Shown here piece by piece: positions 4,616 to 24,614 of a stretch of DNA of 35,590 nucleotides (position 1 is its first letter; every line of letters begins with the position of its first letter). The position numbers and the translations under genes were made by a program. This DNA is from Thermoplasmata archaeon (GTDB lineage: Archaea; Thermoplasmatota; Thermoplasmata; Halarchaeoplasmatales; Halarchaeoplasmataceae), in NCBI GenBank assembly GCA_007129655.1, contig SKVC01000063.1:1-35590 (forward strand), written 5' to 3'. The notes beneath the pieces are model-generated. The model saw only the letters and a program-made list of their open reading frames with translations. It searched no databases and was not told the origin of the DNA.

Positions 4616-6522
4616 ATCGAAAATCCATCTCTGGTTCTTGCTGCGAGGCCTTTTTTAAAGTGTAACATCTCCATTGAGTTCATGGTGCTTCTTGCTGTAG
4701 CCACCAGGTTATCGTCTTTATCTACAACCAGAGCTTCATCTCCCGGACGTATATCCTCCCATGCCTGGTTTATAAAACCGGCGAATACGTTCTTTCCTTC
4801 TCGATTATAGGTTGCACTGTCATCTGTTACGCATATCCGTAATACGGGATGTTCCGTTAGTCTATGTGATATCAAGGCCCCTTCAGGTTTTAGTGTGAAC
4901 AAGCCGTCATAATGACGCATAGAGAGTATGTGTTTTCCATCTAAAAGCACGTTTTTGATACTTCCCATACGGTTGGTTTTGAATTCCAGGACTCCATCTG
5001 AAAATATCTGCCCTGCTCCGGAAAAGAATTGGTAATCCGAAATTGTTCGGACCTTCATCTCGTGGAGTTTCATACCGGTGCCCTTGCTCAACGATTCCAG
5101 TGTTTCCTCACCATCCCAAGTGATGATCTCCTCCCGATGCGAACAATGTTGTGATCCATCATAGGTAAAATGCGGAAATAACGATTGGGCGATGGGGTAA
5201 ACTTCATCCATCTCCAAGGGAACTGGTCCGAAGGGTGTGGAAACCAGCAGGTTTACCGGATAGTCCGGAAGCAGCATACTCAATTCTCTGGTAAGATAAC
5301 GGTGATACGGTTTTTTGTCAGGTTTGATATCGAATAAAAGTGTAGGGCCATCAACCGGAGGCTTGTAGGATTCATGTATCCATCGTTGTATCCTTTCCAC
5401 CGTAGGTCTGTGCAGTGTACTTGTACCGGTGTAATAAAGCGCTCCTCTGCGGCTACGTGGTTCGTATCTCTCAAGTATGTTCCAGCCCTTAGATAGTGCT
5501 CGCAGTGATTCATGTATTTGAGGATGAACCCTTGCTCGGACCTCCACCATCTCCCATAGAGATTCTTCCATTATAGCCTGTTTGATCCTGTCTATTTCGT
5601 TATAGCTTATCCAGAGATTGTGTTCCGCGATCTTACGAACCCTTTCTTCACTTTCACGGAGCTCTTTGGCTGTATGAGACTGGCAGACGGGACATAGGCA
5701 TCCCAGATGTTCGATATTTGCGATGTTACGTGTGCCCTCGGGGTACATCATATCGCCACGACGGGCGTACTTAGCATAGGAGCTAGAGTCGAACAGATCG
5801 CAGCCCAGTAGTACCGCGATAGGATACACCATGGGATGTCCGGCACCGAAGAGGTGTACTGGGCCTGCCGGACCGAGACCGCGTTTGGATGCTAAGATGA
5901 TCTCGATCAAGTCTTTGTAACGGTAGTTCTCCAGTAAAGGTACAACGCCGCCGATGGGGTAAAAGGTTCCGTTTAATTTAGAGAGTCGAGCGGCACAATC
6001 CTCTCTGATATCCGGGAATACGCCGCCCTGGATCGGAAGGGCTATGTGACTATCGGTTTCAGAGTATTTACTCAATGCTTGTCGGGCACGTTCAACAGTG
6101 GTACCTACTTTTCTTTCAACTAATTCCCTGCCATCAGTGGGTTCTGTGAACATATCCAGTATTGTGCAGATATCGGAACCGATGCTCATCTGAAAGTCGA
6201 TGATGGTTTCCGGTTCTATATCTATATCTCCGTAAACGTGGGCCTGGAATGTACCGGAGTCCGTCATTATCGTTCCGGGAAAATCAAGTAGCTCGTGTAA
6301 TCCGTCTTGAAGAGCACGCTCTTTTAAATCGGGGCTCTTGAAGATGATATATGAATTGGTGATCAATATCTGTGAGCCGAATTTTTTCTTCAATTCTCTT
6401 GGAGAAATGAATTTTACATTGGGATTGATAACAGGCATTATGTTAGGAGTTTCTACGATACCGTGTGGTGTGGTGAACTCTCCTATTCGAGACATCCCAT
6501 CCCGATGTTTGAGCTCGAACAT
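4612..6522 (-). CDS. tgtA: tRNA-guanine(15) transglycosylase, archaeosine synthesis
   Basis: Exchanges guanine-15 in the D-loop of archaeal tRNAs for preQ0, the first step to archaeosine. The TIM-barrel catalytic domain occupies residues 1 to ~330, with TDSGTFQ (Asp88) and DLFDSSSYA (Asp245) corresponding to the catalytic aspartates of the family, and a zinc site formed by Cys275, Cys277, Cys280 and the following His (CLCPVCQSH). Middle C1/C2 domains follow, and a PUA RNA-binding domain covers about residues 560-636 (DEALVVDKDDNLVATARST). The 636-aa length is that of full archaeal TgtA with the PUA attached. The ATG lies 7 nt after nifS and has a GGAGGAG site 11-18 nt upstream, so the two form an operon. 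Confidence 0.96.
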   Translation of the reverse strand: MFELKHRDGMSRIGEFTTPHGIVETPNIMPVINPNVKFISPRELKKKFGSQILITNSYIIFKSPDLKERALQDGLHELLDFPGTIMTDSGTFQAHVYGDIDIEPETIIDFQMSIGSDICTILDMFTEPTDGRELVERKVGTTVERARQALSKYSETDSHIALPIQGGVFPDIREDCAARLSKLNGTFYPIGGVVPLLENYRYKDLIEIILASKRGLGPAGPVHLFGAGHPMVYPIAVLLGCDLFDSSSYAKYARRGDMMYPEGTRNIANIEHLGCLCPVCQSHTAKELRESEERVRKIAEHNLWISYNEIDRIKQAIMEESLWEMVEVRARVHPQIHESLRALSKGWNILERYEPRSRRGALYYTGTSTLHRPTVERIQRWIHESYKPPVDGPTLLFDIKPDKKPYHRYLTRELSMLLPDYPVNLLVSTPFGPVPLEMDEVYPIAQSLFPHFTYDGSQHCSHREEIITWDGEETLESLSKGTGMKLHEMKVRTISDYQFFSGAGQIFSDGVLEFKTNRMGSIKNVLLDGKHILSMRHYDGLFTLKPEGALISHRLTEHPVLRICVTDDSATYNREGKNVFAGFINQAWEDIRPGDEALVVDKDDNLVATARSTMNSMEMLHFKKGLAARTRDGFSI

Positions 6523-13252: not shown

Positions 13253-13286
13253 ATTTGCCCGTAAATTGCCATTAGAATGTCATTCA
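13253..13286 (+). repeat. Left copy of island direct repeat
   Basis: ATTTGCCCGTAAATTG followed by CCATTAGAATGTCATTCA matches, with two substitutions and a short indel, the sequence at 24415-24446 in the same orientation, 11.2 kb away. The two copies bracket the MntA-HepT/BNR/beta-helix region. No recombinase or tRNA target is visible, so it may be either an island boundary or two members of a dispersed repeat. Confidence 0.5.
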
Positions 13287-13307: not shown

Positions 13308-13367
13308 TCAACCCCACTTCCGCCTCCGCACACTCGTCGCCACCGTCACCGATAGTGATCCAAAATA
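13308..13367 (-). pseudogene. Decayed C-terminal tail of a BNR/PEF-CTERM protein
   Basis: Read on the minus strand, this stretch gives YFGSLSVTVATSVRRRKWG then a stop, closely resembling the end of the 447-aa BNR protein (FGN..VTVATRVRRKKER stop). The DNA CTCGTCGCCACCGTCACC at 13333-13350 is identical over 18 bases to 14644-14661 inside that gene. An in-frame stop lies just upstream of the tail, so nothing is expressed. It looks like the remnant of another copy of the family. Confidence 0.6.
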
Positions 13368-13386: not shown

Positions 13387-13722
13387 TCACAGATCATCCA
13401 GCATTTTCTCGAATGCTGATTTCAAAGGCGGGATCTCCTTCGTAACGGTGTTCCAAACCCTTTTGGTGTCCGCTCCGAAATAAGCATGGATCAGTTTGTT
13501 TCTCATCCCTACTATATCCCTCCAGGGGATTTCCGGATATTTCTCTCTTACTTCATCCGGAATATTCCTGACTGCTTCACCAATTATCTCTATCGACCTG
13601 ATCGTGGCATATATGGTTTTATCATCTTTACAAAAAGTGTCATAGTCCATACCCTCAACAAATTTCATACCCTTGTTCGCAGCATCGATCACATCCTGAA
13701 TGTAATCACCGACTTCCCTCAT
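13387..13722 (-). CDS. hepT: HepT-like HEPN toxin RNase
   Basis: A 111-aa HEPN (DUF86) protein. The RNase active-site motif Rx4HxY is present as R74-N-K-L-I-H79-A-Y81. In characterised MntA-HepT systems the toxin cleaves RNA and is silenced when its partner attaches AMP to the tyrosine of this motif. The gene overlaps mntA by 4 nt (ATGA), so antitoxin is made first and toxin translation is coupled. A role in phage defence or plasmid maintenance is known for the family; which applies here cannot be told. Confidence 0.92.
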
Positions 13723-14042
13723 GCGTAGACGACCTCTTTCATGATCTGTTTCCCTATCCGCGGCTTCAGTGCGGATTCCTCCACAAGGTCAACCTTCACC
13801 CCGAGAAGATCGCTGAGGTGGTTCTCGATCTCCACAAATTTCAACAAACCCAAATCCGCATCCTCTGAAAATTCAACCAGTATATCAAGGTCGCTCCCCT
13901 CACCAGCCTCGCTCCGCACATATGAACCGAAGATTCCGATCTTCTCGATTCCGTATTTTCTCCTCAATTCATTTTCATGTTCCTTGAGGATGTTTGTGAT
14001 TTCCGCGAGCTTATCATTTTTACCTTTCATATAATTTAACAA
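13719..14042 (-). CDS. mntA: MntA-like minimal nucleotidyltransferase antitoxin
   Basis: A 107-aa nucleotidyltransferase of the MNT family, with GS at residues 39-40, the metal-binding D51-L-D53 in [10 protein letters not shown] and a third aspartate at D85 (VDLVEE). It is expected to neutralise HepT by AMP transfer. The ORF starts at a TTG (14042) that has AGGAG 6 nt upstream; the in-frame ATG at 14030 would be 18 nt from that site, so the TTG start is favoured. It is the first gene of the pair and lies at the left of the island of surface-protein genes. Confidence 0.92.
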
Positions 14043-14134
14043 CGTTTTCTCCTAATTTTAACTTTCCCATCAAAAACAGGCTTGGAAATAATGCCATACG
14101 CGGTCTATAGAAGAACGAATCGAACGACATCAGC

Positions 14135-14602
14135 ATGAAGATTTCGGATGACCGGGGGATGACTTGGAACGAGCCGATCTCACTTTTGAAGCCGACGGAC
14201 AAGGTGGAACGTATCGAAATCGCCTCCGACGGCGACAAGGTGCTCGTGATGTGGGCGGCGTCAAGTTATTACCAGTTGATATACAGTACGAACGGGGGTG
14301 CGTCGTGGGAAGTGGATGTGAACGAGTACGAGTACACCGGTCGTTCATACCCTGCGGTTGATATCGAAAACGGATATATCTACGTGATCGCGGTGAAGTC
14401 TGCATCGACTACCGAGGAGCAGTCGGTGGGACTGACGGCTGAAGAGCCGCCTCTCGTTGGGACATATACCGAGTTGAAGTGGGGGCCCGAAGGCAGCGAA
14501 GAAGTTAACACGAAAAACCTCGAGATGGCTTATTCCGTCTCCGACATCGAAGTGGTTGGAGAAACGGTATACATCGCCGCTCTTTCTTCAGGGAAAAAAT
14601 GA
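14135..14602 (+). pseudogene. Fragment of a BNR/Asp-box repeat protein
   Basis: The open frame encodes 155 residues without a signal peptide and begins in the middle of a repeat: SDDRGMTW is an Asp-box (SxDxGxTW), STNGGASW a second one. Its layout parallels the C-terminal BNR part of the 865-codon ORF gene downstream (ISDDRGMTW/RSSDQGSTW; STNGGASW/SSDGGASW; VVGETVYIA/VTGETVHVA). Upstream the frame is closed by a TAG at about 14109, and a neighbouring frame reads AVYRR, so the 5' part is lost or frameshifted. The end, SSGKK, also comes abruptly. Probably a non-functional relic. Confidence 0.65.
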
Positions 14603-14618
14603 GTAAAACCTCGAATAT

Positions 14619-15962
14619 TTATCTTTCTTTTTTACGCCGTACCCTCGTCGCCACCGTCACCATCAACATCGTCGCAACCACCGGAACTACGATGTTACCG
14701 AACTCCGGTATCGGCTCGCCGAAGTCAGGGCTTCGCTTGTAGTATATTTCGGAGTTCCCGTCGCGTAGATCGTGCCATACGACATGCTTCATGTTATTGA
14801 CCAGAGCTATACTGGGTCGCCAGGAGTCGTTTGTAGCGTTAGTAAGCCTCAAATCGTCATTCCAGGAGATTCCACCGTCTAATGACTCTTTGAAATATAT
14901 TTCCGCATTCTCTCCGTCATCTATTCGATCAGCCCAAACTATATTGACTTCGTCACCTTGAACGGAAATATCGGGATTTGAGATGATCGGACTTGGACCG
15001 GAAAGTTGCTGCGCCGGATTCCACGTCACGCCGTTGTCCGTCGAGCGGCGGTAGTAGAGGTAGTAGTCCGGCTCCGACCCTGGCCACACTTGTTCCACCC
15101 AAACAATGTGGATGTTGGAGTTGTAAACAGCCATAGCAGATACCACTGAATCCGATGTAGTTTCGGATATTCTTCTTCCGAAGTCTTCATTTCCTAAACC
15201 GTCTTCCCATGTATATCCGTTGTCTTTTGAGATCATCCAATAAATTTGCCAATTCCCGTGTCTTCTATCACACCACGTAACAGCTATATTGGATTCATGG
15301 CCCGCCATCCTGGTTTGAGTGATCGCCGCCGGTGCATATGTTATTCTTCTATCGCTGTCGTCTCCCTGCCCGTTATCAAAGGTTTCACCACCATTTAAAC
15401 TTCTACGATAATATATCTCCCCGTCATCTCCATCTCTAAGGTCCATCCACGATATATGAACGTTAGAACTGTTCACGAATACTTTCGGCCCTTCGGAGTT
15501 ATGTCCGTCGTCGCTGGAGATCATCTGCTCGGTGAGCCAGGTTACGCCTCCGTCTTCCGAGCGGCGGTAGAAGATCTCCCATGCAGGTGTTTTCCAATCA
15601 CCCCAGACGATAGATACGTTGTTCCCTGCAAGTCCGACATCTGGCCAACTAGCCAAAACCCCACTATCAGAGATTTGAAATGGTGTACTCCATGTATTTC
15701 CTGAGTCTATCGATGACATATGATACACTTCAGTAGTATCATCGCTCCAACCTTCATAAGAGATATGAAGGGAAGAACTGTAAACATCTATATTTGCTTT
15801 ATAACCATGTGTCGGAGGATATGTCAACCTGATGTCCTCGCTCCAATTCTCCAGCGGTCCTTCTGAGACCTCAGGTGTTCCGGCAATCATATTAATAGGA
15901 ACGAAAAGTGATACAACCAGAATAACCGTCAAGGCTACCGTGCAGATTACCTTCGTCCTCAT
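14619..15962 (-). CDS. Secreted BNR/Asp-box repeat protein with PEF-CTERM-like tail (B1)
   Basis: A 447-aa exported protein. Residues 1-28 form a signal peptide (TKVICTVALTVILVVSLFVP). From ~38 to ~410 there are about seven beta-propeller-type repeats, many with an Asp-box: SEDGGVTW, SLNGGETF, SKDNGYTW, STDNGVTW, SLDGGISW; each is followed by a strand like IVWxDxRxG. The C-terminus has PEFGNIVVPV, a hydrophobic helix, then RVRRKKER, which is the layout of PEF-CTERM sorting signals processed by an archaeosortase; no archaeosortase is in the window. Asp-box propellers occur in sialidases but no catalytic residues can be assigned, so a binding or adhesive role is equally likely. It is a paralogue of the 462-aa protein at 18676. 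Confidence 0.85.
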   Translation of the reverse strand: MRTKVICTVALTVILVVSLFVPINMIAGTPEVSEGPLENWSEDIRLTYPPTHGYKANIDVYSSSLHISYEGWSDDTTEVYHMSSIDSGNTWSTPFQISDSGVLASWPDVGLAGNNVSIVWGDWKTPAWEIFYRRSEDGGVTWLTEQMISSDDGHNSEGPKVFVNSSNVHISWMDLRDGDDGEIYYRRSLNGGETFDNGQGDDSDRRITYAPAAITQTRMAGHESNIAVTWCDRRHGNWQIYWMISKDNGYTWEDGLGNEDFGRRISETTSDSVVSAMAVYNSNIHIVWVEQVWPGSEPDYYLYYRRSTDNGVTWNPAQQLSGPSPIISNPDISVQGDEVNIVWADRIDDGENAEIYFKESLDGGISWNDDLRLTNATNDSWRPSIALVNNMKHVVWHDLRDGNSEIYYKRSPDFGEPIPEFGNIVVPVVATMLMVTVATRVRRKKER

Positions 15963-16046
15963 GGTATTACAATAACATCTGAGGAAGTTAATAACTCTTG
16001 CCGTAGCCTTGATGTTTTACCTATATTTATACCCCCTCGCCCCCCA

Positions 16047-16058
16047 ATATATATAATT
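16047..16058 (+). promoter_or_regulatory. TATA-like box of the A1-B2-A2 operon
   Basis: ATATATATAATT lies about 95-107 nt before the preferred start at 16154, giving a transcript with a leader of roughly 70-75 nt. This differs from the leaderless arrangement of most first genes in the window. A minus-strand TATA-like GGTATAAATATAGG at 16021-16034 probably serves the divergent BNR gene. Confidence 0.4.
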
Positions 16059-16130
16059 ATTCGACGTAAGTTATTAATAGAACTATGCTGTTAAGGTTAA
16101 CAGCAACCTTTACCAAAAGGGGAGAAAACT

Positions 16131-16157
16131 ATGAAGAGAAAGGAGAGAAGAACATGA
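16131..16157 (+). CDS. Possible leader mini-ORF (8 codons)
   Basis: ATG at 16131 is preceded by GGGGAG with a spacing of about 6 nt and encodes MKRKERRT followed by TGA. Its stop overlaps the ATG of the large gene at 16154 as ATGA. A good ribosome site and a coupled stop-start suggest it may load ribosomes for the gene downstream. It may equally be chance in a purine-rich leader. Confidence 0.3.
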   Translation: MKRKERRT

Positions 16158-18682
16158 TGGAAGATAAAAATAGAAGTATGGTGATTGGGCTTTGTTTTAT
16201 GATCGTATCTGCACTGATATTCAGTGCTGCCGCCGTACCGGCGTTTCCGGTTGAGGATGATGAAGTCAACATACCTCAAACAGCCACCATCGGTCCGGAG
16301 CTGGATCTTGAAATGCCACTGACGGAAATGGAAGCCGAGATGAGGGATGAACCATCTCTTCGAGAGTTATACGACCGTCCGATATTCGACAGAGAACCTC
16401 ATAGGAACTTTATGTACGATGATTTTGATATGCTCTTACATCCGCAGGATAGTTTGAACGCCGAGGAGGAAGAAAGCGACGGACCCGAGAGAACTTTTAT
16501 CGGAGTAACATCCATTCGGGCGGATTCACCCGTCATATACCTGAATCAGGATAATATGATATATTTTACTGTAAATAATTTAGGTGGGGATGTAGGTGAC
16601 GCTGCATATACCGAGAACATAACCGCAGCGATTGAAAGCATCGAAGAACTTCGTGATCAGTATAGCGGGCATCCTCGTGTGGGACAGCTCGAAAAGGCAA
16701 TCGAACGTCTTGAGGAAGCTCTGCTACTGGTTTCGGAACATCAGCGTGAAGAATCTATAAAATCCGTAAGGCAGGCCGTAACTCACTTAAACGCCGCTGG
16801 CCAGGGAAGACAGGGGATACTTACTGAACAGATAATAATTGAGCTCGCTGAAATCGTACAGTTTAAAGTGACCACCGTTATTAATGAAGCAACCTCTAAC
16901 TTCGGCTCTGAACATCCTGATGTGCAGGAAGCAGAAGACATCTACGAGGATGCTGTAGATAAGCTCGACAACGGGAAGTACATACCGGCGATGAATCGTT
17001 TCAGGAAAGCCTTTGAGACCGTACTCGGTGCATATATCTGCGATGTAAACCTTGAACTATACTCATGGATGAGAGACGGTTACGAGAGCGAGATAGGGAA
17101 TGGATTTATCGAGTCTTTCGAGGCCGAATCGTATGAAGTTATCACCCTAACATGGAGTCCTACTCGGAGGGGAATACATTACGTCAGAACAAACATAACG
17201 GGTGAATACATGGTCTATAGTTCTGATGGTGAAAAAGTTGAAAGTCCGACTAAACTCTTTAGCACGGGATTTGTGGTTACATCGGAGGATGAGCCTGAAA
17301 AATGGGGTCCAGGTTACAATTACACTAGTGTTATAACCGTTGAAGAGGGTATTAGGTATCGTGATGGTCCTCTTGTTATTGAGGTTTACGATGATCTGGA
17401 GATCCAATCGGGTGCAGCCCTCCAGCTCAACGAGTCGATAACTCTTGTGATGATGAATACAGAGCCCGGGGAGTTTTCGATCCTAATCGAACCCGATGGG
17501 ACTTTCATCATCGAAAGCCCTGTTGAATCCGCAACGATTACTTCATCAGACGAGGGATATAGAAACACTTACCCCTTCATCAACCATGGGAATGTCCACT
17601 TCACCGGTGCTGCGGTTATGGACACACACGGCCCCGACGACCTCTCTCTACCCGCAGGCATACAGAACCTCCCGGGAAGCACGTGCATACTCGACAACAC
17701 CAACATCCTGGAGGCCGACACCCACAGCGTGTACGCATCGGAGGATTCATCCGTGCAGATAATGGGCGCCGATACGGTCATCGGGCGTGACCTGGATGGG
17801 CAGGAAGATAACGATGAGATCGCAAAAGGCCATGGGATCTTCATCGAGGGCGCCGTGCCGAACATACGGGATGTGACGGTAAAGTACAATCGTCAGGACG
17901 GCATACGTGTTGTCGATTCAAAACCCGGGCCCATACAGGCGGCCAGCCTGCACGAGTACGACTCCGGCGACTACGACCGCCAGCTGACTCATGACGACAA
18001 TACGTCCACTTTGCCCGTAATCGTCGCAGGGAACGGAAACCTGTATATGGTTTACCTGGACGAGGATGCACAGCACATCAACTTCATGAGGTCTTCGGAT
18101 CAGGGCAGTACATGGAGTGCTCCAGCGGTAGTTCCCGGGAGTGAGGTGGAGGAAGGATTCATCCGGAACATCGATATCGATGCCGACGGTGACAACCTGG
18201 CGGTTGCATGGGATGTGTGGATACCGTGGGATGGCGTGATACCATATGGGTTGACCGGAGAGGACGAAGGTCAACGTTATATCGTGAAACTTAATGTACA
18301 GCACAGTTCAGACGGAGGAGCGAGTTGGGCGGATGTACCCTATGTAATAGATGATTCGTCCTTCCCATCGGTGGCCGTCGAAGGGGATACCGTGTATGTT
18401 GCATATTATAAGGGACCGTACTATCGGGATCTGTATATGCCGTATCCTGTTACCGTCAGGATACGATGGGCCGCCGATGGCTGGGAGGAAGTCGAAGAAC
18501 ATGTATTCGATATCATGGTGGGCGTCCCAAAGGTGGCTGTAACCGGCGAGACCGTGCACGTGGCTATCGCCGGTTTCGAAGAGATAATATACGTGCGCAG
18601 TGACGATGGTGGCGTAGATAGCTCAGAAATGTTTATCAACGGGCTAAGTTATATGGCTGTCACGAGAGGCAGGACATGGTAA
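16154..18682 (+). CDS. Large secreted protein: split CARDB-like module, beta-solenoid cap, BNR repeats (A1)
   Basis: About 842 residues from the preferred ATG at 16154, which has AAAGGAG upstream and leads directly into a signal peptide (MVIGLCFMIVSALIFSAAAVPAFP); the ORF track's ATG at 16085 adds 23 unlikely residues. Order of parts: acidic stretch to ~110; first half of a CARDB-like Ig fold (~116-150); helical insertion rich in E/A/L (~152-292); second Ig half ending in ITLTWSPTRRGIHYVRTN (~292-370); a beta-solenoid-like region (~395-605); then BNR repeats with RSSDQGSTW and HSSDGGASW. The N-terminal ~560 residues are a clear paralogue of the 1328-aa protein at 20061. The end is abrupt: the last Asp-box lacks its tryptophan and the frame stops after GRTW with no membrane anchor, so it is probably truncated. 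Role unknown; extracellular. Confidence 0.8.
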   Translation: MMEDKNRSMVIGLCFMIVSALIFSAAAVPAFPVEDDEVNIPQTATIGPELDLEMPLTEMEAEMRDEPSLRELYDRPIFDREPHRNFMYDDFDMLLHPQDSLNAEEEESDGPERTFIGVTSIRADSPVIYLNQDNMIYFTVNNLGGDVGDAAYTENITAAIESIEELRDQYSGHPRVGQLEKAIERLEEALLLVSEHQREESIKSVRQAVTHLNAAGQGRQGILTEQIIIELAEIVQFKVTTVINEATSNFGSEHPDVQEAEDIYEDAVDKLDNGKYIPAMNRFRKAFETVLGAYICDVNLELYSWMRDGYESEIGNGFIESFEAESYEVITLTWSPTRRGIHYVRTNITGEYMVYSSDGEKVESPTKLFSTGFVVTSEDEPEKWGPGYNYTSVITVEEGIRYRDGPLVIEVYDDLEIQSGAALQLNESITLVMMNTEPGEFSILIEPDGTFIIESPVESATITSSDEGYRNTYPFINHGNVHFTGAAVMDTHGPDDLSLPAGIQNLPGSTCILDNTNILEADTHSVYASEDSSVQIMGADTVIGRDLDGQEDNDEIAKGHGIFIEGAVPNIRDVTVKYNRQDGIRVVDSKPGPIQAASLHEYDSGDYDRQLTHDDNTSTLPVIVAGNGNLYMVYLDEDAQHINFMRSSDQGSTWSAPAVVPGSEVEEGFIRNIDIDADGDNLAVAWDVWIPWDGVIPYGLTGEDEGQRYIVKLNVQHSSDGGASWADVPYVIDDSSFPSVAVEGDTVYVAYYKGPYYRDLYMPYPVTVRIRWAADGWEEVEEHVFDIMVGVPKVAVTGETVHVAIAGFEEIIYVRSDDGGVDSSEMFINGLSYMAVTRGRTW
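16500..17930 (+). repeat. Duplicated module, copy 1 (shared with 20237-21640)
   Basis: This coding segment and 20237-21640 are paralogous along their whole length at protein level and nearly identical at DNA level in patches (for example GCATACAGAACCTCCC and GCCGACACCCACAGCGTGTA occur in both). The G+C content is low in the first part and high in the last ~350 bases, which suggests stepwise gene conversion. Confidence 0.75.
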
Positions 18683-20064
18683 GGCTCCCGAAAATGGGTG
18701 TGCAGCGGGCACGAAAGAGGAAGCGGGAAAGTAGGTCGAAGTATGTTTCCATCATTATCGTCTTTCTGATTATGGTCGTGGTAGTGCTGGGCGGTGCGAT
18801 GTTGTCCGATACTAACTACAGTTCAAGTGCATACGATTACAGGACGAGAAGTCCACCCGGCTGGAGCGAGGATGTGAGGATATCGTACAATTCTACTTCC
18901 GATCGAGAACCAGCAATTGCAGTTGAAGGTGAAGTTGTACATATTGTGTGGAGGAGTACATGGTTTGGAGGACAAATATTTTACACTAAATCAAATGATG
19001 CGGGAGAAAACTGGAACGAGCCAGTGATGATAGGTCCTTTGGATTATGGTTGTATGAGACCAGATATTGCTGTTAGCGGTGATGATGTGCATGTGGTATG
19101 GGAGAACAATAACGCTTCGGCCCGGGAGATTAGGTATCTGAGGTCTGTTGATGGTGGTGACACATGGCTCCCCGAACGGATGATCTCCAGCGACGACGGG
19201 AATAACTCGCAGGCCCCGAAGATCGCCGTGAGCGAGGACGGGATGGACGTGCATGTTGTCTGGGTCGATAGCAGGCATGCGGATGAGTCGTTTCCTCCTA
19301 ACCTCGAACTGTACTACAACCGCAGTCATGATAGAGGCTTGACATGGGAAGGAGAAATGCGTCTTACCGAGGCAGATTATGAATCAACAGGACCGAATAT
19401 AGCTGTTGTGGGGTCTTCAGTACACGTAGTTTGGATGGACGAACGTGCCGGAAAGTGGGATATTTATTACAGGCACTCACTTGACAGGGGAGCGACATGG
19501 GATGGAGAGGTTATAATATCCGACAGCCCTAATCACGAAGGGCCGGCAGACGTAGCTACATCTGGAGAGACCATACATGTGGTTTGGGATCGAACCGTAT
19601 CTGGCGAAGACTTGATCCTTCACCGTATGTCTACGGACAACGGAGGAACATGGAGCGAATCACAGGTTCTTACAACTTCACCCGTTCGAGCAGTTCGACC
19701 AAGAATAGTTACAAATGGAGATGAAGTACATATGGTGTGGTTTGACGGACGAGATGGGGGAAATGAAATATATTATAAGAACTATGTATCTGAAGTCTGG
19801 GGAGCAGACACCAGACTTACATACACGGACAATAGCGAATCACTGAGTCCTAACATAGCCATTGATAACGATAAAATACATGTAGTATGGCATGATGACA
19901 GGGATGGAGATCTCCCAGAGATTTATTACAAACGTAACCCCGATTTTATCAATGTGCCTGAGTTTGGACATGTATTACTCCCTGTAATCGTAACAATCAT
20001 TATTTACGTTATTTATATATATAATCAGAAAAAAGAAAAACATAAAAGGAGGACAAAAACATGA
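18676..20064 (+). CDS. BNR/Asp-box repeat protein with N-terminal anchor and PEF-CTERM-like tail (B2)
   Basis: A 462-aa protein. A very basic N-terminus (QRARKRKRESRSKY) precedes one membrane helix (VSIIIVFLIMVVVVLGG), so the bulk is outside the cell. About seven propeller-type repeats follow with Asp-boxes SVDGGDTW, SHDRGLTW, SLDRGATW, STDNGGTW and strands of the HVVWxDxR type. The tail VPEFGHVLLPVIVTIII... ending in KKEKHKRRTKT is the same type as in B1, and the two proteins share most of their repeats. The ATG overlaps the end of A1 by 7 nt; an alternative ATG is at 18694. Its TGA overlaps the next ATG as ATGA, so A1, B2 and A2 are one coupled operon. Confidence 0.82.
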   Translation: MVRLPKMGVQRARKRKRESRSKYVSIIIVFLIMVVVVLGGAMLSDTNYSSSAYDYRTRSPPGWSEDVRISYNSTSDREPAIAVEGEVVHIVWRSTWFGGQIFYTKSNDAGENWNEPVMIGPLDYGCMRPDIAVSGDDVHVVWENNNASAREIRYLRSVDGGDTWLPERMISSDDGNNSQAPKIAVSEDGMDVHVVWVDSRHADESFPPNLELYYNRSHDRGLTWEGEMRLTEADYESTGPNIAVVGSSVHVVWMDERAGKWDIYYRHSLDRGATWDGEVIISDSPNHEGPADVATSGETIHVVWDRTVSGEDLILHRMSTDNGGTWSESQVLTTSPVRAVRPRIVTNGDEVHMVWFDGRDGGNEIYYKNYVSEVWGADTRLTYTDNSESLSPNIAIDNDKIHVVWHDDRDGDLPEIYYKRNPDFINVPEFGHVLLPVIVTIIIYVIYIYNQKKEKHKRRTKT

Positions 20065-23000
20065 AAATAGATGAGAAAATATTGAGCATATTGGCTACAC
20101 TACTGATACTGCTAAGTTCAGTAGCTGTAACCGGAGTATCGAGCATTTCGTACGAAGAAGAAACGAACGAATCGACTATGATATATCACAGTGAAGAAGA
20201 TATGACGTCCTTGAGTGGAAAGCTGACCGACACTTTTCTGAAAGTCGAAAGTGTCAGAGCAGATAGTCCCGTGGTATATCTCGATCGGAATAATAATATC
20301 TCCGTGAAAATATTAAATTCTGGAGCAAATGTAGGGGATGAATCCTACACCGAGAACATAACCGCTTCAATCGAAGACATCGAAGCTCTCCTTGAATTAT
20401 ACTCAAATAATCCAAGAAACAAACTCCTGGAAAAAGCGATAGAGAGTCTTGAGGAGGCTCTGTTGCTGGTGTCGGAACATCAACGAGAGGAATCTATAAA
20501 ATCGGTACGTCAAGCGGTTGTACATCTTCACGCAGCCGGCCAGGGTAGGCATGGGATACCGAGAGAAGATGTGATAACCGCACTGGCGGAGACTGTCGAA
20601 CTGAAAGTTTGGACAGTGATAGAACAGGCGAGAAGTAGCTTCGGGTCTGAACATCCTGATGTGCATGAAGCGGAGGACATATACGAAGATGCCGTAGATA
20701 AGCTCGAAGACGGGAAGTATATACCAGCGATGAATCGTTTCAGGAAAGCCTTTGAAATAGTGCTTGGTGCGTATGTATGTGATGTTAACCTTGAACTATA
20801 TTCATGGATGAGAGACGGTTATGAGAGCGAGATCGGGAGTGGGTACATAGAGTCATTTGAAGCCGAATCGTACGAAGTTATTACGATAACATGGAATCCT
20901 ACTAGAAGAGGGATAAATTATGTGAGGGTGAATATAGCGGGTGAGTACATTGTCTATAGCTCGGATGGAGAGGCGGAGGAAAGCCCTACTAAGACATTTA
21001 GCTTCGGCTTTGTAGTTACATCTGAGGATGATGAAGAAGAAAGGTGGGGGCCAGGTGGTCCTGGGGCAGGTTATCATGATTATAGTAATGTTAGCGCAGA
21101 TGAGGGTATACGTTATCGTGATGGACCACGAATAATTTTTGTCGAGGATAGTAATCTAACCATCGAATCGGGCGCAGCGCTACAGCTCAACGAGTCGATA
21201 ACTCTTGTGATGGAGAATGAATATGCTGAACAATTTTCGATTGTCATCGAACCCGATGCAGCATTCATCATCGAGAGCGAAGTAGGTGATGATATTTCAA
21301 CGATAATTACAGCACCTAACCGTAATACATACCCATTCCTAAACCACGGCACAGTCCACTTCACCGGTGCTTCCGTTATGAAGACCTTTGGGAACCGTAG
21401 CGATCTCGAAGAGCCCGCCGGCATACAGAACCTCCCCGGGAGCACTTGCATACTCGACAACACAAACGTACTCGAAGCCGACACCCACAGCGTGTACGTT
21501 ACAGGTAATACGGAAGCACATATTCGAGGAACCGAAACGATAATCGGTCGGTTGGATGAACACAACGAGAACATAGCTACGGGACATGGGGTCTTCGTCG
21601 ATGGAGCTACATCGCATATCGAGAATGTGACAGTGCAACACAACCAGATGAATGGAATAAAAATTTTGTCATCTAGCTACAACAACATAACAAACAACAT
21701 CTTGTTGACCAACAACATTGGCATATATTTAAGATTCGCACACGACAACCTTATCAACAATAACACTGCGCCATCTAACGACGAGTATGGAATTTACCTT
21801 ATGAAATCCGAAAGAAACACTATTACCAACAACACAGTCAAAACTAACTACCGCGGTTATTATGGTATTTATCTTCGGGAGTCTAATAGCAACACTCTTG
21901 AGAACAATAGTGCAAATTCGAATTCCGAAGGTATTTTGCTCATGTTGTCATCAAACAATAAAATACATAACAACACCGCCAACTCGAATGACTTCCGAGG
22001 TATTTACCTAAGCGCGTCCTCGGACAACACCATCACCAACAACATCGCCAACTCGAATAATTGGGCCGGCATCTACTTTGATACCGACTCTAGCTACAAC
22101 GTCATTGGGAACAATGACCTCTCAAAAAATGGTTTTGGCATCGTCATCCAGAGGTCATCCAACAATATTATCCAGAATAATATTGCAACCATGACTGTAG
22201 ACCGCAGTATCTACCTCCTAGCCTCATCTAACAACAACACTATTTACAACAATACCGCCAATTCGGAGTACAGACACGGTATATACCTTCAGAGATCTCA
22301 CTACAATACCATCTCTAACAACGATGTATCAGACAACGATAGGGATGGAATCTATATCGAGTGGTCCAGTAATAACATTCTGAAGAAAAACATAGCTTAT
22401 TTCAATGGCTACAACGGCATCTACCTATATTCATCTTGCAACAATACAATCATTAACAATCTCGCAAAAGACAACAATAGAGATGGATTCTACCTCGATA
22501 TGTCTGACGGGACCAAAATTGTCAACAACACCGTTTTGAACAACAATTACGGTATCTATCTCTCATCTTCTAAAAACAACACCATCGCCAACAATACCCT
22601 ATCGAACAATTACCACGGAATCTACATGGAGGGTTCTTCTTCGTCGATCATCAGGAACAACCGCATAGGCACGGCCTACTATTCCGTTGAAAACGAACTC
22701 GTGTACGGACCAGCCAGCGGTGGCGAAACATGGCCATTCTATTTAGATAACGAGTATATATCAGAATGCACCCTCTATCTCGATAACGGTTACGAGCTGT
22801 ATGAATTGACGGAAGGAGTTGATTATATTTTAGACTATGAACAGGGTGAGATATACTTGATCGACTGGACATTGAGTACTGGTGACATCATCTATGCGGA
22901 CTACACTTACCTGATACCAAACGACGGCAATATCTATGGGATATACAGTATTGAATCATCTCCAACGATAGAGGGCAATAAGATCATTTGGAATGAGAAA

Positions 23001-24047
23001 GACGGAATACATATAGACAACTATGGAGATCTTACTCACACACCGGTAATCAAAGACAATACGATCTACGGCCATCGGGACGGTGTGGGTGTAAACGTGC
23101 TCAACTCGGCTGTACTGATAAAAGATAATCTCATCGCCAGTAACAGGGACGGTGGGATAATTATGTATAACTCCACAGGTGAGATAAATCAGAACATAAT
23201 CAATGGTAACTGCCGTCCGTGGTCATACACACCACCGGAGTGGATGTATACAGGGATACATCTACTCCAATCCGATAACGTATGGATACATAATAACAAT
23301 CTCTCTTCCAATCGTGTAAATATCGCTATTGAACAGTCCTCCAACATAAATATCGAGTGGAATGAAATAATAGATCAACCCGCAATCGAGATCAAGATAT
23401 ATCCTCCTCCGCCATCGACACGTGGTATAATCTCCATTGATTCTCAAAGCGAGATATCGAACAATACCATCAGAGGTACTTCTTATGGAATGATTATCGA
23501 ATATGCAGATGATACTACAATAATCAACGACAACAAGTTCTATCCCATGGAAGAATACGGGGCGCTCAATGCACTACACCTGAAGTGGTCCTCGCCGATA
23601 ATAAAGAACAATAATTTCTCTCATGCGGAGGGTTGGGGTATTTACTCGATCTACGGAGCTCCCGCCAACAGCGGAGTCAACGGAACTCAACTGATCGAGG
23701 AGAATACATTTGGTTATTGTGGTCAAGGATGGGTAGTGCAGTACTGGCGGTTCCAGGTACGCGTTTTAGAACATGATGAAGCCGTTGAAGGCGCCGATGT
23801 CGTGATCTGGGACAATCTCGGTGGCGCTGCGGTATGGGAAGGAACCACCGACGAAAACGGTGATACAGACGAAATCGTTCTGCCCCAGTATTCGTGGGAT
23901 TCCGAAGGAGAGAAGACACAGTATTCACCCTATACGGTATTGGTAGATTCCGATTACTGGTACCTCATATCATATATCCATCTGGAATCGAATATCCTGC
24001 TGGAAGTTGATGTCGGTACGGGGGATCATACGATAAAACCATACTGA
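20061..24047 (+). CDS. Very large secreted protein: split CARDB-like module plus NosD-type beta-helix (A2)
   Basis: A 1328-aa exported protein starting with a signal peptide (ILSILATLLILLSSVAVTG). AAAGGAGG stands 8 nt before the ATG. Residues ~60-95 and ~237-310 form the two halves of a CARDB-like Ig fold; ~96-237 is the helical insertion seen also in A1; ~330-530 is a beta-solenoid-like region. Residues ~533-867 hold about 15 parallel beta-helix repeats of 22-25 residues of the form GIYLxxSxxNTIxNNxAxxN (NosD/CASH type), followed by an interruption and further repeats to ~1220. The last ~95 residues (VRVLEHDEAVEGADVVIW...) look like a carboxypeptidase-regulatory-like beta-sandwich. Such beta-helices commonly bind or cut polysaccharide, but no active site can be assigned. 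There is no membrane anchor, so it is likely secreted or attached via partners. Confidence 0.85.
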   Translation: MKIDEKILSILATLLILLSSVAVTGVSSISYEEETNESTMIYHSEEDMTSLSGKLTDTFLKVESVRADSPVVYLDRNNNISVKILNSGANVGDESYTENITASIEDIEALLELYSNNPRNKLLEKAIESLEEALLLVSEHQREESIKSVRQAVVHLHAAGQGRHGIPREDVITALAETVELKVWTVIEQARSSFGSEHPDVHEAEDIYEDAVDKLEDGKYIPAMNRFRKAFEIVLGAYVCDVNLELYSWMRDGYESEIGSGYIESFEAESYEVITITWNPTRRGINYVRVNIAGEYIVYSSDGEAEESPTKTFSFGFVVTSEDDEEERWGPGGPGAGYHDYSNVSADEGIRYRDGPRIIFVEDSNLTIESGAALQLNESITLVMENEYAEQFSIVIEPDAAFIIESEVGDDISTIITAPNRNTYPFLNHGTVHFTGASVMKTFGNRSDLEEPAGIQNLPGSTCILDNTNVLEADTHSVYVTGNTEAHIRGTETIIGRLDEHNENIATGHGVFVDGATSHIENVTVQHNQMNGIKILSSSYNNITNNILLTNNIGIYLRFAHDNLINNNTAPSNDEYGIYLMKSERNTITNNTVKTNYRGYYGIYLRESNSNTLENNSANSNSEGILLMLSSNNKIHNNTANSNDFRGIYLSASSDNTITNNIANSNNWAGIYFDTDSSYNVIGNNDLSKNGFGIVIQRSSNNIIQNNIATMTVDRSIYLLASSNNNTIYNNTANSEYRHGIYLQRSHYNTISNNDVSDNDRDGIYIEWSSNNILKKNIAYFNGYNGIYLYSSCNNTIINNLAKDNNRDGFYLDMSDGTKIVNNTVLNNNYGIYLSSSKNNTIANNTLSNNYHGIYMEGSSSSIIRNNRIGTAYYSVENELVYGPASGGETWPFYLDNEYISECTLYLDNGYELYELTEGVDYILDYEQGEIYLIDWTLSTGDIIYADYTYLIPNDGNIYGIYSIESSPTIEGNKIIWNEKDGIHIDNYGDLTHTPVIKDNTIYGHRDGVGVNVLNSAVLIKDNLIASNRDGGIIMYNSTGEINQNIINGNCRPWSYTPPEWMYTGIHLLQSDNVWIHNNNLSSNRVNIAIEQSSNINIEWNEIIDQPAIEIKIYPPPPSTRGIISIDSQSEISNNTIRGTSYGMIIEYADDTTIINDNKFYPMEEYGALNALHLKWSSPIIKNNNFSHAEGWGIYSIYGAPANSGVNGTQLIEENTFGYCGQGWVVQYWRFQVRVLEHDEAVEGADVVIWDNLGGAAVWEGTTDENGDTDEIVLPQYSWDSEGEKTQYSPYTVLVDSDYWYLISYIHLESNILLEVDVGTGDHTIKPY
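20237..21640 (+). repeat. Duplicated module, copy 2 (shared with 16500-17930)
   Basis: Second copy of the N-terminal module. The helical insertion has near-identical stretches such as SLEEALLLVSEHQREESIKS-like and GSEHPDVxEAEDIYEDAVDK in both proteins. Beyond 21640 the two genes diverge completely: beta-helix here, BNR repeats in copy 1. Confidence 0.75.
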
Positions 24048-24355: not shown

Positions 24356-24614
24356 AAAGCTTGCGCTTTATAATAGATCGTCTATAGACTCACCCGACTT
24401 ACATTACAATAAGAATTTGCCCGTAAATTGGCGTTAGTATCATTCAGAATGCTATCGCATTCTAAAAACTCGTGAAGCAGAGCTTCCCTCGCCAGCAGGA
24501 ATGCAGAGCATTCCTCCAGCTCGTAAATCATAGATTTACTCGTCTCCCCCTCGGCGCTTTTTACAATTCGAATATTCATGAGAATTTAAAAAACAAGAAG
24601 AATCTTTGATTCTT
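24356..24614. repeat. Array of small perfect hairpins with CTCG spacers
   Basis: At least six consecutive short inverted repeats with 3-4 nt loops: AAAGC/GCTTT (24356-24369), AGAATGC/GCATTCT (24446-24463), GAAGC/GCTTC (24474-24486), AGGAATGC/GCATTCCT (24497-24515), GTAAATC/GATTTAC (24523-24539) and AAGAATC/GATTCTT (24598-24614). The tetramer CTCG separates several of them (24469, 24488, 24520, 24539, 24550). The stems differ in sequence, so it is not a CRISPR array. The 65-codon minus-strand ORF 24382-24579 runs through it and is probably fortuitous. Confidence 0.7.
24415..24446 (+). repeat. Right copy of island direct repeat
   Basis: ATTTGCCCGTAAATTG followed by GCGTTAGTATCATTCA, matching 13253-13286 in the same orientation. 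It leads directly into the hairpin array, which the left copy lacks, so the left copy may be a truncated member of the same element. Confidence 0.5.

Follow-up and report, generated by a model that had tools for sequence, protein, structure and literature searches.

Do the overlapping surface-protein genes on a contig of an uncultured member of the Thermoplasmata form a system with its own logic, or are they an altered form of an arrangement that is more regular in related genomes? The window analyzed here is the entire contig C33 (35,590 bp) of a 1.63-Mb MAG that consists of 159 contigs and is 90.5% complete. The first-pass annotation described a translationally coupled unit of three modular surface proteins, A1, B2 and A2, in which A proteins with exchanged C-terminal halves present different binding surfaces and B provides the membrane link. 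The relatives used for comparison are Thermoplasmata MAGs, including B1Sed10_191R1, HAP25 and HAP27. The genomes compared are all drafts and for the most part MAGs; A or B genes are cut by the end of a contig in places, and bins are possibly mixed, as suggested for one of them (G013) by contig coverages of 15–63x.

The surface gene cluster and its surroundings

The A1 (positions 16154–18682), B2 (18676–20064) and A2 (20061–24047) genes are indeed arranged as an overlapping unit, all on the plus strand, with overlaps of 7 nt (ATGGTAA) and 4 nt (ATGA). G013 likewise has the B2/A2 overlap but not the A1/B2 overlap, as its A1 homologue stops 36 nt before the ATG of B2. The B1 gene (14619–15962, minus strand) lies outside 16154–24047, head-to-head with A1, and its product is, as had been proposed, a paralogue of B2 (35% identity). 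The divergent B1/A1 intergenic region (15963–16153) contains TATA-like sequences, and both its halves are conserved in the relative G002, which possesses a B1 orthologue (65% identity) and in which contigs C129 and C139 each carry one half of the window's intergenic sequence at the ends that face each other.

Both B proteins comprise an N-terminal signal or transmembrane (TM) segment, a predicted seven-blade Asp-box (BNR) propeller, and a PEF-type motif (IPEFG in B1, VPEFG in B2) followed by a TM segment and a basic tail; B1 matches Pfam BNR_2 at 1e-13. Another B-like gene in the window's genome (L027; G000:C20:3-1208) runs off its contig end. A1 is a truncated A protein of 842 aa. Its CARDB domain (16490–17278) is split by a helical insert of ~135 aa (helical part at ~16634–17038); farther downstream are half a propeller (17921–18628; HMM positions 2–221 of 399) and a tail (18629–18682) in which A homology is lost and the frame continues into the B2 5′ leader. 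In A2, the A module leads directly into a NosD β-helix, with neither a propeller nor a C-terminal TM segment.

On the other side of B1, and convergent with it, F0 (14111–14602, plus strand) is the leftover of another A-type propeller (HMM positions 49–205), and a short sequence at 13310–13350 (minus strand; VTVATSVRRRK in translation), found as a repeat, resembles the 3′ end of a B gene. Between the two lies a HepT/MntA-like toxin-antitoxin pair on the minus strand, similar in sequence to pairs in three relatives. Four genomes have such a pair next to an A or B gene, at 13387–14042 in the window and at 4750–5432 in L021, 7784–8418 in L059 and 210–868 in L060. HepT is 93–96% and MntA 89–94% identical between the window and the three relatives, the neighboring surface proteins being far more diverged, and the genomes with such a pair beside A or B contain only 3–4 HepT matches each.

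Two 26-bp direct repeats (88%) at 13253–13278 and 24415–24440, ~11 kb apart, bracket the whole surface cluster, and the right-hand copy is part of an intergenic repeat that also occurs at G000:C93. An island bounded by these repeats was considered and rejected: the repeats are an intergenic element present elsewhere in the genome, and there was no evidence of excision. A scan of viral contigs for a viral origin of the cluster yielded no relative.

A1 and A2 are reduced forms of one architecture

HMMs were built for the A module, the A propeller and B, and A loci from 400 genomes of the class Thermoplasmata were annotated. A1 and A2 had been described as sharing ~560 N-terminal residues. The similarity itself is clear (65% identity over 521 aligned columns), but the shared module is not N-terminal: it covers A1 residues 114–621, and residues 1–112 are merely 13% identical. 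This module consists of a CARDB domain with a helical insert, followed by the first turns of a β-helix. The CARDB profile (Pfam PF07705) matches two of the eight alignment members, the best at 1.6e-6, and does not match A1 itself, probably because of the insert. The insert is absent from the A protein of G025, and its helices are predicted, with low confidence, in the L080 homologue. For A1, no Pfam or NCBIfam match was obtained at the default threshold. That A2 ends in a NosD-type parallel β-helix, as initially noted, was confirmed by Pfam matches at 4e-74 and 3e-87; its score against the NosD copper maturation protein TIGR04247 is 148 bits, the cut-off being 300, with the β-helix repeat alone in common.

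The combination of the A module with C-terminal domains in relatives, which the first-pass annotation had suggested examining, bears on its claim of exchanged C-terminal halves. Four relatives encode near-complete A proteins (G007:C75, 1746 aa; G002:C139, 1330 aa; G025:C31, 1495 aa; G013:C9, 1385 aa with the N-terminus missing). In all four, a propeller that spans essentially all 399 profile positions comes after the module common to A1 and A2, and in-frame β-helix repeats come next, so that the order is CARDB, β-helix start, complete BNR propeller, and the remainder of the NosD-type β-helix in one chain. The C-terminal halves of A1 and A2 have therefore not been exchanged; both proteins are reduced forms of the same architecture. 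A1 does end in a half propeller, although this is no normal BNR domain and has no Pfam BNR match, and A2 is an A protein without the propeller. The idea that A modules offer different binding surfaces through exchanged C-termini is thus unsupported, A1 being a truncated gene and A2 a propeller-less version. Distant A proteins (G111, G105, G083 and G162) match only the β-helix part of the module and leave the A propeller profile unmatched. A structural model of A has low overall confidence (pLDDT 57.6), and the fold search performed with it was dominated by the propeller. A-type proteins in other families reach 2305 aa (L104, 7504–14418), 3308 aa (L106, 227–10150) and 3080 aa (L108, 4275–13514).

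Given the whole propeller and β-helix of the relatives, A1 is a 3′-truncated A gene that stops about half-way through the propeller at the B2 5′ leader. Homology to A ceases at an Asp box (SDDGG) near position 18620, after which the frame runs into the leader that starts at ~18641 (18641–18690) and is closely similar to the sequence upstream of B2 in G013. On contig C23 of that genome, an A-type propeller end and the first β-helix coil are followed by a stop codon, the leader and the B2 ATG; the A1-B2-A2 order is thus conserved in an independent assembly in which the end of A1 differs. The 8-bp word GATGGTGG is found both at the SDDGG Asp box of the window's A1 and at the A1 end of G013, and its presence at the two sites would fit a microhomology deletion. 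The missing second half of the A1 propeller was not found elsewhere in the window's assembly. In G013, A2 is cut at ~299 aa and abuts a frame that, from its sequence, we take to be hutU-like; a frame of presumably the same kind likewise follows the full A gene of G007. Seen in a single MAG, the decayed form of a more regular system can look like a novel operon; only relatives reveal the system itself.

Pairing of A with B and the predicted nature of B

Of the confident A loci, 13 have a readable flank, and at all 13, two of which are those of the window, a B gene adjoins A; they belong to families f1, f11, f18 and f22. The pairs are mostly head-to-head (window B1/A1, G007:C75, G025:C31, G074:C301, G074:C245, G111:C1, G105:C97, G105:C124 and G083:C27), and some are in tandem, with B before A (window B2-A2, G013:C23, G002:C9) or A before B (G162). 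The G074:C245 pair is weaker, its A gene being below threshold in the locus annotation and recovered by the profile used for the co-variation analysis below. G013:C9 points the same way, as A there faces the tail part of a long B gene (77% to the B tail of G008), and so do the ends of the G002 contigs C129 and C139, which are outside the 13. Exceptions are weak or fragmentary, namely, a 35-bit match in G026 with no B and a 134-aa fragment in G013:C2. Two loci with A at a contig end, G002:C93 and PUOJ01000122, were left out as unreadable; the latter (L081) is labelled Bacteroidales, its A gene has an archaeal-type downstream neighbor, and the contig is probably misbinned.

With 2–13 strong B matches per genome and ~2000 genes assumed, the chance of a B neighbor is ~0.2–1.3% per A locus. 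In a control, no B-profile gene was detected in 14 stretches around distant β-helix matches, some of which reach a contig end on one side. A modules found mostly alone had been named as the observation that would speak against the original proposal; the linkage to B is instead far beyond chance. The two genes also co-vary: across 12 pairs, the A and B identity matrices are correlated with a Mantel r of 0.64, a value inflated by shared species history and reached in 0 of 5000 permutations. Two genomes, G074 and G105, each carry two pairs of different lineages. In the G074:C301 pair, A and B both resemble those of G025 and family f1, and in the G074:C245 pair, A is close to that of G105:C124 and G083, with B leaning narrowly the same way (0.38 vs 0.30–0.35).

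This near-invariable pairing across several Thermoplasmata families points to an undescribed two-protein cell-surface system; no described BNR/NosD surface pair was found in searches of an open-access subset of the literature. Hardly any surface proteins of uncultured Thermoplasmata are annotated, and a co-varying pair provides both a unit for predicting a surface complex and a marker for such systems in metagenomes. Our preferred reading, to which we assign a probability of about 0.5, is that A and B constitute a conserved surface pair, with A as a secreted binding rod and B as its lectin-like partner, and that the window contains two copies of the pair, one of them decayed. A possible, though more doubtful, explanation is that the unit is a mere decaying duplication of ordinary surface genes, with A1 and F0 as pseudogene remnants, the gene overlap as a deletion accident, and no complex implied at this locus. 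The half propeller of A1, F0 and the B 3′ remnant are what such decay would leave behind, as are the three A pieces of G013, one cut on the N side, one cut on the C side and one a fragment. However, the A1 frame is open over 842 codons, G013 retains both the A1-B2-A2 order and the B2/A2 overlap, and the A-B pairing holds across families.

GH33 sialidases have six-bladed propellers and a RIP motif with the first catalytic Arg. In an AlphaFold model of the window's B2, obtained with four sequences, an N-terminal helix precedes seven three-stranded blades and a C-terminal helix (pLDDT 82, pTM 0.79). The number of blades in the model is that of the PLL lectin fold and not of GH33, and the RIP motif is found in none of 15 B proteins, each of which has 5–7 matches to the Asp-box pattern. 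Among the best 50 Foldseek matches listed for the B2 model, sialidases come first by E-value, whereas the TM-score normalized by target is highest for the non-enzymatic PLL lectins (0.70–0.71, compared with ~0.2–0.6 for sialidases). Because of these TM-scores and the absence of the RIP motif, we favor a lectin-like B, whose predicted seven-bladed propeller is more similar to that of PLL lectins than to the sialidase fold. Unlike the PLL lectins of Photorhabdus (PMC6943638), B carries Asp boxes as well as a hydrophobic segment at the N-terminus and a tail at the C-terminus, and the two are ~12–13% identical in the fold alignment. The blade number, the TM-scores and the absence of the RIP motif make it unlikely that A and B are a hydrolytic pair, in which B would be a sialidase-like glycosidase and A a polysaccharide-lyase-like β-helix, even though B shares Asp boxes and Pfam BNR_2 matches with sialidases and these give the best E-values among the fold matches listed.

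The first-pass annotation saw B as the membrane link through its anchor and PEF tail, and this holds in part. Every complete B protein of the window's family f1 has a C-terminal hydrophobic segment, mostly after P/S-E-F, and B is predicted to be anchored in this family; the PEF tail is not general, as a C-terminal membrane segment is absent from the majority of B proteins in families f11, f18 and f22, which mostly end in a conserved GEGYWVH...W domain. None of the A proteins checked has a strongly hydrophobic C-terminal segment. The P-E-F motif, hydrophobic span and basic tail of B1 and B2 resemble PEF-CTERM and PEFG-CTERM signals, and the window's genome contains archaeosortase-family (TIGR04178) matches above cut-off on G000:C102 and C133, although the isolated B1 and B2 tails score below the curated PEF-CTERM and PEFG-CTERM cut-offs (18.3 vs 23 and 18.1 vs 25 bits). 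In L103, L104, L105, L107, L108 and L109, a GEGYWVH...VW domain stands in place of the membrane tail, and the A protein of G007 seems, by eye, to end in a relative of this domain. By our reading of the sequences, some B genes encode PKD-like C-terminal regions.

If A and B are a conserved surface pair, A would be a secreted, unanchored multidomain rod with a CARDB domain (carrying the helical insert in the window's family) and then a β-helix into which, in several members, a seven-blade Asp-box propeller is inserted. B would be a secreted seven-blade Asp-box propeller that, in the window's family, would be anchored by its PEF/PEFG-type hydrophobic tail, which an archaeosortase may process. It would most likely hold or cap A at the cell surface, and the two together might bind glycans or other extracellular polymers, for adhesion or uptake; a secreted complex of this kind is plausible. 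The stronger proposal, that A and B are an obligate, undescribed surface apparatus of Thermoplasmata, in which A-embedded and membrane-held B propellers form a polymer-binding complex diversified by recombination among copies of the pair, is tentative. The limited reach of the PEF tail and the low confidence of the A model weigh against our preferred reading, and so does the ability of B to do without A or to work with a different partner, given that strong B genes occur in G001, which has no A match, that G007:C16 has B and no A, and that the long B gene of G008 (L064, 4865–10275) is head-to-head with a subtilisin-like protease (subtilase) gene and not with A.

Mosaic history of the locus and related systems

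The identity of A1 to other A proteins is mosaic. Its residues 1–112 are 60% identical to their positional counterpart in the A protein of G002 and 13% to A2, and for residues 296–375 the identity is 85% with A2 and 52% with the G002 protein, a pattern consistent with gene conversion between A1 and A2 or an exchange of modules between them. F0 is a diverged remnant of a first propeller half, and together with the B 3′-end remnant and the mosaic A1, it indicates that the locus gained and lost copies repeatedly. The best reading of the window is a duplicated A-B pair with module exchange and decay: a head-to-head B1/A1 pair would have gained a tandem B2-A2 downstream, A1 would afterwards have lost its 3′ part as far as the B2 leader, and its middle would have been homogenized with A2.

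Mosaicism, together with the A fragments in G000 and G013, could also be taken to mean that A copies and fragments swap segments by recombination for antigenic variation. We find this improbable: the window contains only two A copies, their DNA identity peaks at 86%, which is low for frequent conversion, the fragments are few and diverged, and no long inverted repeats were found. A phase-variable poly-G tract in the divergent promoter was likewise rejected, as it is present only at the G002 contig end, is not conserved and is missing from every other intergenic region inspected, so that a sequencing artefact is likely. The tract of 28 G (L062, 6176–6203) closes the contig inside the conserved B1/A1 intergenic region. 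An assembly chimera at the A1-B2 junction, conceivable in a 159-contig MAG with similar paralogous segments and in view of the bin mixing suggested for G013, is very improbable because in that independent assembly, too, the end of an A-type propeller is immediately followed by this B2 leader.

Like the locus described here, the cell-wall genomic island of Haloquadratum walsbyi (PMC4535781) is variable and encodes clustered large surface proteins, of which some have parallel β-helices; a gene pair of the A-B type is not among the features described in the available part of that source. Secreted archaeal proteins that combine propeller and β-helix modules were already reported in 2002, as cited in PMC4535781. 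The conserved pair differs from these in that the propeller of A is of the Asp-box/BNR type and is located between β-helix segments of one protein, and in that a second propeller protein, B, is encoded by a conserved adjacent gene.
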